Part shown: positions 14,156 to 20,280 of the stretch, piece after piece
Layout of the letters: each line of letters starts with the position of its first letter
Position numbering within the stretch: the first letter of the stretch is position 1
Source of the DNA: Phycisphaerae bacterium
GTDB lineage: Bacteria; Planctomycetota; Phycisphaerae; Phycisphaerales; SM1A02
Direction of reading: 5' to 3'
Assembly: GCA_016873335.1 (NCBI GenBank)
Contig: VGXN01000012.1
Coordinates: 1 to 38,134, forward strand
DNA: 38,134 bases
The notes under the pieces: generated by a model
The model's database searches: none
What the model saw: the letters and a program-made list of their open reading frames with translations, nothing else
Told to the model about the DNA's origin: nothing
Translations under genes and position numbers: made by a program

Positions 14156-15818
14156 TCAGCGCCGTTGCGGGGAGCGCCACGAGCGCGCCGCGCAGGCAAC
14201 TGACGATGCCGAGCGCCGTGCCGAACGCATCGTGAAACATTCCCTCGAGCGGCGCCCACGCGGCGATTGCCAAAAGGACCGCAGCGCAGGCTGCCGCATC
14301 GGGGAGGCGCGCGCGTCCAACGATGAGCAGAAGCACTGCGGAACCCGCGACAGCGGGGAGGAGCAGGGGATACACGGCGCCTGGCGCGATGATCAGCACG
14401 ACTGCTGCAAGCAGAATGGAGAGCGCATTCGCTGCGATCATTGTGCTCCAGAGCCCCACAACCGCTGGAACACTTCCTGCGGTTGCAGTGACACCGCTGC
14501 GCGGGTTCAGTCGCCACGCGATCAGTCGAGGTGCCCACGTGGCGACCGCGCCGAGTGCAACAGCCATCAGCACCCATGCGCTTGTTGCAGCTGGCCAAGG
14601 AAAGGAATCGGGGGCGATCCACCGGGACACGATGGAGAAGGTCCAGCCGATCGATGCGGCGAGCGCGAGTCCTGCCAAGAGCAGTAGCGCATCTCGCAGG
14701 ATCGCACACAGCGGGACATCGCTGCAGCGGCGCACTGCAGCGACCGTGCCGAGAACCGATAGCACGAGAAGCGCGATGGAGATCCACCCATCCCAGCGAA
14801 CGATCGGGCCGCCGAGCGCGTTGAACCAGACCGTGCCTCGCTGCAGGGGAACACCCGACGTGCGTGTCCACGCTGCGTGATCGCCGGATGTCGGCATCGG
14901 CGGTGACCCCGCTGCAAGGGACCGCAGCAGTGCGAGTGCGGTCGAGCCCATCTGTCCGATCGTCGCGATTTCCACTTGATCGACGCGGTCGTTCGCAGTG
15001 TGATAGTTCCGCGGCGATCCGATGAAGGCGATGTTGAACCCCGGTCGACCTGTGCGTACGGCGACGGTGAAGTCAGTGTTGTTTGGCATCAGCCGATACG
15101 CCTCTGCTGCAAGGCTGGTGGAGCACACGGGCGCGTCAACCGCCGCAATCAGGCGTGCGTGCGCTGCCGCATCAGCGCCTGTCTCGAAGAGGATCGCCGG
15201 ACCGCTGCTTCCACGTGCATCGAGATTGACGATGGCGCCTGCGCGCATCCACCATGGGTGTTCCTCCGCAAACCTCCGCGCTCCCCAGAGCCCGACCTCC
15301 TCGCCGTCCGTGAAGACGACGAGCACGGCACGTGGTGGCGGATTTGCCACGAGCGCACGGATCGATTCCAGTGCGCATGCGACGCCCACGCCATTGTCGC
15401 CAGCGGCAGGACCGCTCGGCACACCGTCCCAGTGAGCCCACAGCACCGGGAGTGGTGCCTCAGTGGCCTCACGACCCGGAACTTCAACAAGAATGTTGTG
15501 CATCTCGACGGCGCTTCTGTTCCACCCCCGTGCAAAGAAGCGGTGTGTCGTTGGCGCAGCGCCGATCTCGCGCAAGCGACTGAGCAGGCGCTCCTTCGCG
15601 GCACCATGTCCCGCGCTTCCCACCGAGCGCGGCGTTCCATCGCCAACGAAGCGCACCAACTCTTCATGAGCACGGCGCGCAGAGAAACGCGCGGGATCGG
15701 TTGGATCCTGTGGATGCGGTGGTGCCGACTCCTGCACGCACCACACGATCATCAACCAACAGAGCACGAGGGTCGCGAGGCGCCACGGACGCTCCAGCGG
15801 CGCGGGGCGCGTGCTCAT
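14133..15818 (-). CDS. M28-family zinc peptidase with C-terminal membrane domain
   Basis: This 561-residue protein has an N-terminal anchor (LATLVLCWLMIVWCV, about 14-28). An M28 aminopeptidase domain follows with all expected metal ligands: His129 (WAHWDG), Asp141 (AAGDNGVG), Glu173/Glu174 (TDGEEVG, base and ligand), Asp200 (NLDARG) and His273 (YHTANDR). From about residue 350 to the end there are several hydrophobic helices separated by basic loops. The layout recalls the Pff1/vacuolar-type membrane M28 proteases. Metal-dependent cleavage of peptides in the periplasm is likely. The start at 15818 overlaps the GH15 stop by four bases (ATGA), so it is probably translated from the fabF-GH15 transcript. 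Confidence 0.88.
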   Translation of the reverse strand: MSTRPAPLERPWRLATLVLCWLMIVWCVQESAPPHPQDPTDPARFSARRAHEELVRFVGDGTPRSVGSAGHGAAKERLLSRLREIGAAPTTHRFFARGWNRSAVEMHNILVEVPGREATEAPLPVLWAHWDGVPSGPAAGDNGVGVACALESIRALVANPPPRAVLVVFTDGEEVGLWGARRFAEEHPWWMRAGAIVNLDARGSSGPAILFETGADAAAHARLIAAVDAPVCSTSLAAEAYRLMPNNTDFTVAVRTGRPGFNIAFIGSPRNYHTANDRVDQVEIATIGQMGSTALALLRSLAAGSPPMPTSGDHAAWTRTSGVPLQRGTVWFNALGGPIVRWDGWISIALLVLSVLGTVAAVRRCSDVPLCAILRDALLLLAGLALAASIGWTFSIVSRWIAPDSFPWPAATSAWVLMAVALGAVATWAPRLIAWRLNPRSGVTATAGSVPAVVGLWSTMIAANALSILLAAVVLIIAPGAVYPLLLPAVAGSAVLLLIVGRARLPDAAACAAVLLAIAAWAPLEGMFHDAFGTALGIVSCLRGALVALPATALIMSVSPR

Positions 15819-17809
15819 GCGCGCGCCTGAACCCCGTGCTGGATGCCTGTGAGTTGCGTGTGCCGCTGCAGGTAGCGCAGCGCAGTCGTGATGAACGCCG
15901 CATGGGACCACGTGAGCGGGCTCACGGAAAGATGCGCGCCCGAATAGGGATCGAACTGTTCCGCGAGCACGCCCGAGGCGGAGGCGCGCTTGCAGACCCA
16001 CTCCAGCAGTGGAACGGCTTCCGCAAGTTCCTCCTCACTGTGTGCGCGCGCGATCAGCCACTGCGCGTACCACAAGGTGGTGATGATCCATGGATTGCCT
16101 GGAACCCGCTGCAGATCATGCCGTTCGATCTGGTGGTAATGATCGCCTGCGTACCGCGCCATGCCGCCAATGTCCGTGTGCACCCAGAGGTTCTCGCGCA
16201 GCATGCGCATATGACTAGTGACGCGTGGGTCATCCGCCTCGAGCGCTCCAAGTGCGAAGAGCCCACATGCGCTCGCATCGGGTGTGAAATCGAGGTGATA
16301 GCCACCGGCGCCATCGGGGGTCGCCATGCGTGCGAAGCAGCCACGCTCTTCGCTCCACAGATGGCGGATCATCGCCTCGCGCATGCGTTCAGCACCTTGA
16401 TCGAATTCTGCGGCACGGTCTGCGGCGCCCACCTCGATGGCGAATGCAGCGGCAGCCTTGAGTGCGCCGATCACGGAAGCGACTGTGAACAGATGGACTC
16501 CGCGTCGCTCCTCCCACAGGTCCCACGAGGGCTGCGGCAAGCCATTGGAGTCGCGGTAACGCAGCATCCAGCCGGCAGGTTCGATCACGAGCGGGTTGTA
16601 GAGATCACGCACGAACTCCACATCGCGGAATGCGACGAAGTGGCGACGCAACGCCCAGACCACGAGCGCTGTTTCATCCTCTTGAATCGGCAGGATGCGT
16701 TTTCCATCGAGGATCCACGGATGCCAGCTCGATGCCACGCTGCCCGTCGGGTTGTACTTGTGCAGGAAGTAGCCCGCGGACTCAATCACCTTCGCAGCAA
16801 AGCGGAAGAACGCCTGGGAGAGTTCGCCTTGCCCTGCAAGCACCAGTGCGTGCGAGACGAGCGCGCCATCCCGCGGCCAGAGGTAGGAATAGGTGTCGCC
16901 AGCGAACCGCGTGATGTCGTAGTCGTTGGCGGCGATGATCGCACCACCCTTGTCGATCTGCGTCCGGATGATGAGTTCACTTCGGATGAAGAGATCGCGG
17001 ACGGCTGTGGGAAGGGGAGAGAAGTCGATTCCCTCTTTGGTGGCCCAGAGCCGCCAGTAGGACTCGGTCCGCAGCATCATGCGCTGCGGGGTCTTCGCGC
17101 GCACCTTGTCGTCGAGGGCCTTGACCTCCGCGTAGTCGCGCCCGGCGCAGATCCAATAGGTCACAAGCGCGCTGCCACGCGAGGGGACGCTCAGCGTGAA
17201 TCCCACAGTGGAGTCGACCGAGCCCTGCGCGATGGAGTTGCGGCTGAGCACGCCATCCTCGGCATCGCGCCATGTGCCTTCCGCATCGCGGATGCGTTTC
17301 TGTCCTGTCGACCATGTGTCAACGCCAGTGGCTCGCGCGCCGAAGCCGTTGAAGAGGAAGTAGGTGTCGTCCTTGAAGTGCACGAGGCCGCCCGTCTGCG
17401 GGTCATAGTGCACCGTGTCGCCGACAGCGCTCTCGCCGATGGAGAGATCGTGGTGAAAGAAAAGACGCACATCGCGCGCTTGATCGTGGAGGTTGTGGAC
17501 GCGAACCTCGCGGAAGTAGACGGGACTCCAGAAGTCGACGGCATCGCGGCAATGCAGTCGCACACCCAGTCGGTCATTTCGCAGGTGGACTTCGGTGACG
17601 AGCGAATCGCGCGTGTACTCCAACTCTCGTGTCCAGCCAGGCGCGTCGACCCACGCGAACTGCCCATCGACCCAGACGCCAAACCGCTGCAGGTGCCCAC
17701 AGGTGTGGTTGGGCATGCCGACCCGCGGCCAATAGAGGTCGCGGATGCGGTAGAAGTCGTCGAAGGCAACGAGCATCTCTCCGTTGCCGACTGGAATGTT
17801 TCGCGGCAT
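15815..17809 (-). CDS. Glycoside hydrolase family 15-like enzyme (glucoamylase/trehalase type)
   Basis: The 664-residue protein has an N-terminal beta-sandwich (1 to about 255) and an (alpha/alpha)6 catalytic domain. Hallmarks are the substrate-binding block YLWPRDGALVSHAL, the general acid within SWDLWEERRG (Glu433/434) and the probable general base Glu617 in LAEQFDPYSG. No signal peptide is visible, so it is probably cytoplasmic and acts on glycogen-, maltodextrin- or trehalose-like alpha-glucans. It starts 6 bp behind fabF and overlaps the M28 peptidase start by four bases, which suggests cotranscription with fatty-acid genes. Which alpha-glucan is cleaved cannot be decided from the sequence. 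Confidence 0.88.
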   Translation of the reverse strand: MPRNIPVGNGEMLVAFDDFYRIRDLYWPRVGMPNHTCGHLQRFGVWVDGQFAWVDAPGWTRELEYTRDSLVTEVHLRNDRLGVRLHCRDAVDFWSPVYFREVRVHNLHDQARDVRLFFHHDLSIGESAVGDTVHYDPQTGGLVHFKDDTYFLFNGFGARATGVDTWSTGQKRIRDAEGTWRDAEDGVLSRNSIAQGSVDSTVGFTLSVPSRGSALVTYWICAGRDYAEVKALDDKVRAKTPQRMMLRTESYWRLWATKEGIDFSPLPTAVRDLFIRSELIIRTQIDKGGAIIAANDYDITRFAGDTYSYLWPRDGALVSHALVLAGQGELSQAFFRFAAKVIESAGYFLHKYNPTGSVASSWHPWILDGKRILPIQEDETALVVWALRRHFVAFRDVEFVRDLYNPLVIEPAGWMLRYRDSNGLPQPSWDLWEERRGVHLFTVASVIGALKAAAAFAIEVGAADRAAEFDQGAERMREAMIRHLWSEERGCFARMATPDGAGGYHLDFTPDASACGLFALGALEADDPRVTSHMRMLRENLWVHTDIGGMARYAGDHYHQIERHDLQRVPGNPWIITTLWYAQWLIARAHSEEELAEAVPLLEWVCKRASASGVLAEQFDPYSGAHLSVSPLTWSHAAFITTALRYLQRHTQLTGIQHGVQARA

Positions 17810-17815
17810 GAGGGA

Positions 17816-19072
17816 TCAGCCCCGCGGCGTTCCGAAGACGAGTGTGGTGTTGTGGCCGCCGAACCCGAAGGAGTTGTTGAGGGCGATGCGAACCGAACGC
17901 TGCTGCGCGGTGTTGGCGACAAAGTTCAGATCGAAGCCGTCATCGGGCTGGTCGAGATTGATCGTCGGCGGAAGGGTGCCTGTTTGCAATGCCTTGATGG
18001 TGGCGATGCTCTCCACTCCACCCGCCGCGCCGAGTGCATGCCCCATCACCGACTTTGTGGAACTCATCGCCAGCGCATGCGCGTGACTGCCGAAGAGGCG
18101 CTTCACGGCGCTCACTTCGGCCGCATCGCCAAGCGGCGTGCTCGTGCCGTGCGCGTTGATGTAGCCGACATCGGTGGCGTTCACTTGGGCATCGGCAAGG
18201 GCGTTCTGCATCGAACGGAACGCGCCGGCACCCTGTTCCTCGGGCGCGGCAATGTGGAACGCATCTCCCGAACAGCCGTAGCCAAGCAGTTCCGCATAGA
18301 TGTTTGCGCCGCGCCTTCGGGCGTGTTCGAATTCCTCAAGCACGATCACCGCCGCCCCCTCGCTCAGCACGAACCCGTCGCGATCCTTGTCGAAGGGGCG
18401 GCTCGCCAAGGCGGGCGCCTCATTCCGTGTCGAGAGCGCCTTCATCGATGCGAATGCGCCGATACAAAGCGGGGTGACCGCCGCTTCCGCGCCGCCTGCG
18501 AGCATCACATCCGCGTCACCGCGTTGAATGGTCTGGAATGCCGCGCCGATTGCATGCGACCCAGTGGCGCAGGCGGTCGCCGTCGCGATGTTGCTGCCGC
18601 GCAGGTTGAACCGGATGGAGACCTGTCCCGCACCTGCGTTGACCATCAGGCGCGGAACGGTGAACGGATTGATCTTTCGGTTGCCCGATGTGACCATGCC
18701 ACGAACGCCCGTCTCGATCGTTCCGATGCCGCCAATGCCTGATCCGATCGCGACGCCGTGGCGGTAGGGATCGCCCGCCTGAAAGTCGATGCCGCAGTCG
18801 CGGACAGCCTCGTGCGCCGCGCCGAGAGCGAAGATCGCGAAACGATCGATACGGCGCTGCTCGCGGACATCAAGGAACGACGAGGGATCGAAGTTGCGCA
18901 CTTCGCCAGCGAAACGGACCCCCCAGTCCTCGTTCGCGTCGAACTGCGTGATGCCTGCGATGCCCGAACGTCCGTGGATGAAACTGTCCCACGTCTCCGC
19001 GGCACTATGACCAACGGGCGTAATGGCACCGAGCCCGGTCACAACCACGCGTCGGAGTGTGATGGTCCTCAC
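17816..19072 (-). CDS. fabF: Beta-ketoacyl-ACP synthase II
   Basis: FabF condenses malonyl-ACP with acyl-ACP in fatty-acid elongation. The thiolase-fold protein has the Cys-His-His triad at Cys168 (ATACATGSHAIG), His308 (INAHGTSTPLGD) and His345 (SVMGHALGAAGG), and the C-terminal NNSFGFGGHNTTLVF block. GTG 19072 gives 418 residues, close to the usual length. TTG 19090 would add six residues, and neither has a strong ribosome binding site. It lies 27 bp behind acpP, as is common, and 6 bp before GH15. Confidence 0.95.
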   Translation of the reverse strand: MRTITLRRVVVTGLGAITPVGHSAAETWDSFIHGRSGIAGITQFDANEDWGVRFAGEVRNFDPSSFLDVREQRRIDRFAIFALGAAHEAVRDCGIDFQAGDPYRHGVAIGSGIGGIGTIETGVRGMVTSGNRKINPFTVPRLMVNAGAGQVSIRFNLRGSNIATATACATGSHAIGAAFQTIQRGDADVMLAGGAEAAVTPLCIGAFASMKALSTRNEAPALASRPFDKDRDGFVLSEGAAVIVLEEFEHARRRGANIYAELLGYGCSGDAFHIAAPEEQGAGAFRSMQNALADAQVNATDVGYINAHGTSTPLGDAAEVSAVKRLFGSHAHALAMSSTKSVMGHALGAAGGVESIATIKALQTGTLPPTINLDQPDDGFDLNFVANTAQQRSVRIALNNSFGFGGHNTTLVFGTPRG

Positions 19073-19099
19073 AGCAGGAATGCGCTGCAAAGGCGCAGA

Positions 19100-19372
19100 T
19101 CAGCCGGTCTTCGCTGCGCCGCCCTTGCCACTGCCAAAGTTGGTCTTGATGTAGTCAATCGCGGAACCGACGGTCTGGATCTTGTCGCCCTGATCGTCGG
19201 GAATCGATGTTCCGAACTGGTCCTCAAACTCCATCACCAATTCAACGATATCGAGGCTGTCGGCATTGAGGTCGTTGGTGAAACTGGTTTCGCGCTTGAT
19301 CTCAGCCTTGTCCACCCCCATCTGCTCTGCAACGATGGCGATGACCTTCTCTTCGATCTCTTTTTCAGTCAC
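19100..19372 (-). CDS. acpP: Acyl carrier protein
   Basis: The 90-residue acidic protein has the phosphopantetheine attachment site Ser39 in the [15 protein letters not shown] block and the helical pattern of ACP. It carries the growing acyl chain in type II fatty-acid synthesis. It begins with GTG at 19372, preceded by AGAGGAG eight bases upstream. The C-terminus has an extra Gly/Lys-rich tail ([11 protein letters not shown]) beyond the usual roughly 78 residues. It heads a minus-strand unit with fabF and is divergent from fabG. Confidence 0.95.
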
Positions 19373-19545
19373 TGGAGGGCTCCTCTAGAGGTGTTGGAAG
19401 TTGCTGTTGATCCGTCGAACGACCAAGAACATCGGCAGTTTGTGCCGCCGAGGAGTATAACCGCTGAGCGGACTTCTGTGCGGACGCGGCAAAGGTTGTT
19501 CGTCCATCGGGATAGCTATGATCCGCGCGCTGCAAGGAGGCAACC
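19373..19545. promoter_or_regulatory. Divergent acpP/fabG control region
   Basis: Both transcripts must start here. On the minus strand TATACT (19459-19454) is a good -10 for acpP, but no clear -35 was found. On the plus strand TATGAT (19517-19522) is a possible -10 with TTGTTC (19496-19501) 15 bases upstream. It would put the fabG mRNA start near 19530, just before AAGGAGG. These are inspection-level matches. Confidence 0.4.
19534..19540 (+). promoter_or_regulatory. Strong ribosome binding site of fabG in front of an ATC start
   Basis: A perfect AAGGAGG is followed after five bases by ATC (19546). In the fabG frame a TGA lies at 19519-19521, so the start must lie between that stop and the conserved TGASRGIG motif. 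No ATG, GTG or TTG occurs in that interval. Confidence 0.75.
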
Positions 19546-20280
19546 ATCGAAAAGCGTGTCGCCATCGTTACTGGAGCCAGCCGCGGAATCGGTCGTGCCA
19601 TCGCTCGGCGGCTTGCCGCAGATGGGAAGCATGTGGTGGGAGTGGCGCGCAATGCCGAGCATTTGGCTGCACTGCAGGGTGAAATCGCCGCGGCGGGGGG
19701 GAGTTGCGAGGTGGCCGCGTGCGATGTGGGTGATGGGGCTGCGCTTGCCGCGCTCATCGATGGCGTTGCCGAAAGGCTCGGGCGACTCGACATCATGGTG
19801 AACAATGCGGGCATCACCAAAGATGGTCTGGTGCTTCGCATGAGCGACGAGGATTTCGATGATGTGATCCGCGTGAACCTTCGTTCCGCATTCGTGGCGT
19901 GCCGATCCGCGGCGCGACCGATGATGCGTGCGCGCTTCGGGCGCATCATCAATATGAGCTCGGTCGCGGGCATCATGGGAAACCCAGGGCAGGCGAACTA
20001 CGCCGCCGCGAAAGCAGGGTTGATCGGCATGACCAAGTCGATCGCAAAGGAACTTGGCGGGAAGGGGATCACCGCAAATGTCATCGCGCCCGGGTTCATC
20101 GATACGGACATGACTGGAGCGCTCGGCGCGGCGGTCAAGGAGGCAGTGCTCCCGCACATTCCCCTGAAGCGCTTTGGGCAAGTCGACGACATCGCGGCAG
20201 CGGTGTCCTATGTGGCATCAGATGGCGGCGGCTATCTGACAGGGCATGTCCTGTCGGTGGACGGTGGCCTCGCCATGTGA
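19546..20280 (+). CDS. fabG: 3-oxoacyl-ACP reductase with apparent ATC start
   Basis: FabG reduces 3-oxoacyl-ACP with NADPH. The short-chain dehydrogenase has the cofactor motif TGASRGIG (residues 9-16), NNAG (86-89), the catalytic Ser139, Tyr152 and Lys156 in INMSSVAG...NYAAAKAGL, and PGFIDTDM. From ATC the product is 244 residues, exactly the common FabG length, and reads xEKRVAIVTGASRGIG. The first ATG/GTG/TTG in frame is GTG 19633, which would delete the whole cofactor motif. Either an AUC initiation codon is used, or one base (ATG read as ATC) is a sequencing error. The gene faces against all other fab genes around it. It ends 126 bp before the convergent lipoprotein stop. Confidence 0.93.
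   Translation: MEKRVAIVTGASRGIGRAIARRLAADGKHVVGVARNAEHLAALQGEIAAAGGSCEVAACDVGDGAALAALIDGVAERLGRLDIMVNNAGITKDGLVLRMSDEDFDDVIRVNLRSAFVACRSAARPMMRARFGRIINMSSVAGIMGNPGQANYAAAKAGLIGMTKSIAKELGGKGITANVIAPGFIDTDMTGALGAAVKEAVLPHIPLKRFGQVDDIAAAVSYVASDGGGYLTGHVLSVDGGLAM

Follow-up and report, generated by a model that had tools for sequence, protein, structure and literature searches.

The fabG gene in a 38,134-nucleotide stretch of DNA from a Phycisphaerae bacterium (hereafter the window; contig VGXN01000012.1) appears to be translated from an AUC codon at position 19546, and this assignment is strongly supported by comparison with related genomes. AUC is a very rare start codon. We favor a model, to which we assign a probability of about 0.8, in which this predicted and conserved AUC start is subject to discrimination by initiation factor IF3, where the proposed role of IF3 is drawn by analogy with the infC and Streptomyces sigR genes. 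The conservation of the codon points to a fabG gene whose translation would be deliberately weak or regulated, rather than to a sequencing error.

The fabG gene and its start site

The features of the window that define the start site are the following.

19517 to 19522, plus strand: TATGAT, a -10-like hexamer, with 23 nucleotides between it and the fabG ATC
19519 to 19521, plus strand: in-frame TGA upstream of the ATC, which closes the fabG reading frame
19534 to 19540, plus strand: Shine-Dalgarno (SD) sequence AAGGAGG, seen in the window sequence
19546 to 19548, plus strand: ATC start codon of fabG, assigned from the sequence and from comparison with relatives
19546 to 20280, plus strand: fabG, coding for 3-oxoacyl-ACP reductase, 244 amino acids plus stop
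19633 to 19635, plus strand: GTG, the first canonical codon in the fabG frame (codon 30)

This gene was singled out by an earlier sequence-only reading, whose description of the site is borne out by the window. As it had stated, the TGA at 19519-19521 is in frame, and ATG, GTG and TTG are all absent from the frame ahead of the cofactor motif TGASRGIG. The first canonical codon is the GTG at 19633. The ATC is located five nucleotides (CAACC) after AAGGAGG, again as described, and the product counted from this codon has the 244 residues that had been given for it, ending at the TGA at 20278-20280. Thus, the window carries a non-canonical codon at SD distance without a canonical alternative, which is the arrangement expected of starts of the infC and sigR kind. 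Initiation at GTG 19633 would yield a product of 215 residues that lacks the TGASRGIG motif.

The further claim that the gene codes for a full and motif-complete FabG protein also stands. The product matches the NCBIfam equivalog model TIGR01830 across residues 6-242 with 317.3 bits (cut-off 297.75), but falls short of the cut-off for more specific FabG equivalog models, for example NF004197 (304.9 versus 332). Hallmarks of an active FabG are the cofactor motif TGxxxGIG and a catalytic N-S-Y-K set. Both are present in an alignment of 15 FabG sequences, in which T9, G10, G14, I15, G16, N111, S139, Y152 and K156 are invariant. Named relatives at 60-64% identity belong to Phycisphaeraceae, Phycisphaerae and Phycisphaerales, which suggests a Phycisphaerales-type planctomycete for the window.

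Conservation of the ATC codon in the genus and family

Matches to fabG were sought in the genome that carries the window (G000) and 60 relatives, and then in 161 genomes of the same family. Sixteen of the 161, in which no match reached E<=1e-80, were left out. The remaining 145, together with six extra members of the genus, make up the 151 family genomes in which the start region was read. The same region was read in 15 genomes from other families of the order. One genome of the genus (G017) has no fabG match at 1e-60, and our genus counts use the 18 genomes with the gene.

The same ATC is present in 15 of these 18 genomes, namely that of the window and 14 others. This comparison with close relatives had been proposed as a check by the sequence-only reading, which named a misread ATG as the main alternative. 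The general rarity of AUC starts is the one point in favor of a single-base sequencing or assembly error, but such an error is ruled out by the recurrence of this ATC in other genomes: 14 within the genus and, at codon 1, at least one genome in each of 30 genera of the family. We consider the chance that the true codon is ATG to be virtually nil.

Of the 151 family genomes, 89 have ATC at codon 1 and one has ATT. For 47 of these 90 starts, distributed over 21 genera, the frame contains no canonical codon between codon 1 and the preceding stop (if the frame had no such stop, 60 codons were considered, or as many as the available sequence provided). A canonical codon occurs only more than nine codons upstream for another 31, and within nine codons for the remaining 12. 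An SD match of at least four bases precedes 82 of the 90, and eight have no recognizable SD. A second test called for an SD match of at least four bases, no canonical codon within nine codons, and no SD-bearing canonical codon within 20 codons. It was passed by 68 of the 151 genomes, from 22 genera. Of the other codon-1 starts, 14 face competition from a canonical codon and eight have no SD.

An additional 13 genomes (genera g5, g8, g14, g19 and g54) have ATC or ATT located 3-10 codons upstream of codon 1, with no canonical codon within nine codons upstream, and 12 of the 13 have an SD match of at least four bases. Less clear examples in this group are L149, which has no SD, L214, where codon 2 is a GTG accompanied by a 6-base SD, and L226, which has a GTG with an SD 20 codons upstream. 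A canonical fabG start is found in 48 of the 151 family genomes. It is an ATG at exactly codon 1 in all 14 genomes read from genera g40 and g43, and an ATG, GTG or TTG one to nine codons upstream in 34 others. These 48 genomes indicate that the non-canonical start is dispensable.

When tallied by genus from our lists, at least one genome with an ATC or ATT fabG start is found in 35 of 42 genera. A conserved non-canonical codon of the infC and sigR kind is present at codon 1 itself in 90 of 151 genomes and 30 of 42 genera. On these comparative grounds, the fabG ATC is conserved across many species beyond what chance would give.

The position where coding begins

We compared the 15 genus members with ATC codon by codon, giving 105 pairs whose counts are not independent due to shared ancestry. 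On this basis, synonymous changes make up 10% of the differences in codons -8 to -1 (50/516) and 86% in codons 2-29 (1398/1626), against an expectation of 28% for random changes. All 105 pairs agree at codon 1, and the synonymous share is 52% for codons 30-60 and 77% for codons 61-200. Thus, as judged from the substitution pattern, the coding signature starts directly after the ATC and spans the stretch that would be untranslated if the start were GTG 19633. The isoleucine codons of the gene offer another comparison. The ATC triplet occupies codon 1 in 89 of the 90 genomes with ATC or ATT there, versus 73 of 89 for Ile7, 66 of 82 for Ile15, and 1244 of 1544 for the other isoleucine codons.

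These data bear on the possibility that a canonical start exists elsewhere, either upstream with a frameshift or downstream with a shorter protein. An ATG within TATGAT lies 28 nucleotides before the ATC in the window (first base to first base), and some relatives have in-frame canonical codons further upstream, as this explanation would need. However, the ATG of TATGAT does not share the fabG frame in the window, is in frame in L006 and not in L005, and is replaced in L007, which reads TATAAT. We have rejected it as the fabG start since its frame is not kept among relatives. In addition, the examined frame is free of canonical codons in 47 of the 151 family genomes, and the leader has no coding pattern whereas codons 2-29 have a strong one. 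The latter pattern also opposes a start at codon 30, and we have rejected GTG 19633 for this reason. Overall, a canonical start at another site appears very improbable.

Other families and the origin of the non-canonical start

FabG proteins from other families of the same order and class are the same enzyme with the same N-terminal motif, but their genes differ from that of the window in how they start. A canonical codon is present near the expected place in 44 of 45 genomes outside the family. This total comprises 14 of 15 genomes from the first outgroup set (15 of 24 other-family genomes were read) and all 30 of a further set, which was read out of many outgroup matches and comes from nine families within the order and class. 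The exception, L240, has no canonical codon within nine codons and has a repetitive leader with an ATG at -15.

A FabG tree of 166 rows was built by a quick method that left 62 of 161 inner branches unresolved. With all start classes taken together, the ATC/ATT state requires at least 15 changes on this tree, of which eight are forced by well-supported branches, compared with a mean of 49.6 for shuffled labels. The tree alone cannot separate gain from loss. We read the pattern as an ATC/ATT start that was gained early in the family and was then replaced several times by canonical codons.

One public record, CAMAXY010000033.1 (L032), carries an ATC-started fabG gene and is labeled Singulisphaera sp. 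GP187. Its leader sequence equals that of G011:C33 from the genus of the window, and the Singulisphaera label looks wrong.

Non-canonical starts elsewhere in these genomes and initiator tRNAs

We scanned the genome of one relative, G010, for other genes of this type. An initial scan of 20 stretches with 224 gene-like ORFs was blunt, in that it flagged the control fabG gene and missed infC. Its first filter returned 41 ORFs, none with a convincing ATC or ATT start, and its second filter returned five matches, of which two were read whole and the others were judged from the listed peptide. A larger scan covered 80 stretches in 46 pieces, with a total of 1,495,807 bases or about 62% of the approximately 2.4 Mb genome. 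Among its 1,103 gene-like ORFs, 575 have a canonical codon with an SD, 337 have a canonical codon nearby without an SD, and 167 have neither. The remaining 24, which include fabG and infC (the classic example), have only an ATC, ATT or ATA candidate with an SD.

The fabG gene has the longest SD match of these 24 ORFs (seven bases) and has no canonical codon in the range examined. Judged solely by visual inspection of their listed entries, the other 22 mostly have a canonical codon slightly farther away or a weak SD, or are likely to be false ORFs. Of the 1,103 gene-like ORFs of G010, fabG gave the clearest case of a non-canonical start. ATC and ATT starts are apparently not a general habit of these genomes, as far as G010 represents them, and more cases are possible. 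We found no paper on an AUC start for fabG among the open-licence papers listed by our searches, which is weak evidence of absence.

A special initiator tRNA with a GAU anticodon, which would read AUC directly, could in principle serve fabG. We found nothing that supports this idea, although the tRNA sets are incomplete: no GAU initiator was found in 21 genomes with a pattern that missed the initiator in six of them, including G000 and G010. The initiator-type arm with CAU gave 15 matches in 15 of the 21 genomes, all within tRNA-Met genes, whereas the same arm with GAU or AAU gave six matches in four genomes, none within a tRNA. The window's own genome yields 36 tRNA matches, and among the 30 that were read the single one with GAU is called tRNA-Ile. 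We have rejected this candidate because its pattern matches in the 21 genomes were not tRNAs, and regard a dedicated initiator tRNA as exceedingly unlikely.

The leader and neighboring genes

Two genes on the opposite strand precede fabG.

17816 to 19090, minus strand: fabF-like gene for 3-oxoacyl-ACP synthase, beside acpP; named from its translation, start tentative
19100 to 19372, minus strand: acpP-like gene for acyl carrier protein, with a GTG start and divergent from fabG; named from its translation

An acpP-type motif is located upstream of fabG on the opposite strand in 18 of 18 genus genomes, and this divergent orientation led us to reject translational coupling of fabG in the genus. 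The -10-like hexamer is kept in 17 of the 18 (by eye), reading TATGAT in 16 and TATAAT in L007, and is absent from L008. Its retention suggests that TATGAT at 19517-19522 might function as the -10 element of a promoter that produces a very short fabG leader. A consensus promoter scan of positions 19330-19600 did not find a full promoter. When three fabG leaders were folded, no notable RNA structure emerged (z-scores of 0.99, -0.74 and 0.93).

Between the divergent genes, the minus strand carries a stem-loop of seven base pairs followed by a T-rich stretch (19432-19451), in what is presumed to be the acpP leader. Further away, an open frame of 1013 residues on the plus strand (15701-18742) runs antisense to a 664-residue ORF (15815-17809) and to the fabF-like gene. 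This frame probably arises as a side effect of G+C-rich codon usage.

Comparison with infC and sigR

Very few non-canonical start codons are described as having been characterized experimentally (PMC5472188). The infC gene, which codes for IF3, starts with ATT in E. coli and ATC in Streptomyces, and the same report describes how IF3 represses the non-canonical starts of infC and of Streptomyces sigR (PMC5472188). IF3 is reported to destabilize initiation complexes on such codons (PMC5472188), and the role of IF3 together with codon-anticodon strength is treated in PMC10158994. The sigR start is GTC in 32 of 34 Streptomyces species and GTT in the other two, and it is preceded by the long SD sequence AGGAGGTG (PMC5472188).

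The fabG gene shares with infC an ATC, ATT or ATA start behind an SD. However, infC controls its own expression through AUU or AUC, whereas fabG is a metabolic gene without a known tie to initiation factors. It resembles sigR in having a conserved non-canonical start and a long SD on a gene other than infC. The sigR start differs in that it is GTC, occurs in one genus, belongs to a sigma factor gene and has an IF3 dependence established by experiment, whereas that of fabG is ATC, is kept across much of a family, and would depend on IF3 as judged from its codon class only.

We examined 60 infC loci by eye: 30 from a first search, in which 36 of 37 genomes gave a match, and 30 from a second. ATC, ATT or ATA is present at the conserved start place in 57 of the 60, a count that includes at least two less certain starts, in L261 and L375, where TTG or ATG is located two codons ahead. 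Genera with ATG-started fabG genes (g6, g40, g43, g52 and g53) keep an ATC or ATT infC start, which indicates that fabG is not obligatorily tied to an infC circuit. Strict coupling of the two start codons is thus rejected, since the ATC, ATT or ATA of infC persists where fabG begins with ATG.

The three genus members that lack the fabG ATC form a subclade in which both genes have changed. In G005, G006 and G018, the codon is replaced by ACC, ACT and ACC, respectively (loci L014, L016 and L010). Codon -1 in these genomes is ACA, ATG and ACG, and a TTG at codon -5 is common to all three. Their infC genes (L259, L264 and L262) read CTG, whereas other members of the genus have ATT or ATC. A joint change of the fabG and infC start codons was seen nowhere else in the genomes read.

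A weak start codon and its possible control by IF3

We propose that the ordinary initiator tRNA starts fabG translation at AUC 19546, aided by the strong SD located a few bases upstream. Because AUC would pair imperfectly with the CAU anticodon, IF3 should reject most initiation attempts. FabG output would then be low, and it should rise as IF3 activity per ribosome falls, as is the case for infC. The family has kept the weak codon despite several replacements by ATG, GTG or TTG, suggesting that low or IF3-responsive FabG production is probably useful. Conservation at codon 1 in 30 of 42 genera argues for tuning by a weak start, and the ATC may set the level of FabG in this manner.

It is also quite possible, if short of probable, that AUC is simply an unchanging weak start that holds FabG at a low level, such that changes in IF3 have no regulatory use. 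This explanation shares the AUC start with the model of IF3 discrimination and differs from it on regulation. In its favor, the comparison shows a conserved codon and not a conserved response, and, in the genomes read, joint changes of the infC and fabG start codons are confined to a single subclade. However, AUC belongs to the class of codons reported to be discriminated against by IF3 (PMC5472188), and some IF3 dependence is to be expected anyway.

If IF3 discrimination does act on fabG, one possible use would be to make membrane lipid synthesis dependent on the status of translation initiation. A more specific proposal, which we offer tentatively and consider somewhat doubtful, is that fabG and infC constitute a two-gene translational circuit, both with AUC or AUU starts, where free IF3 sets FabG output. 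If this proposal is true, fatty-acid and therefore membrane synthesis would be coupled directly to initiation capacity and not via a transcription factor.

The fabG gene is an addition to the conserved non-canonical starts, and it is unusual both as a core metabolic gene and in the breadth of its distribution. It would be a central metabolic enzyme gene that keeps a non-canonical start in at least 30 genera. For the window, gene finders limited to ATG, GTG and TTG should lose the first 29 residues of FabG, including the cofactor motif. The ATG-started fabG genes of sister genera constitute natural, built-in controls, and with fabG one can test concretely whether genes other than infC are governed by IF3 outside model bacteria.
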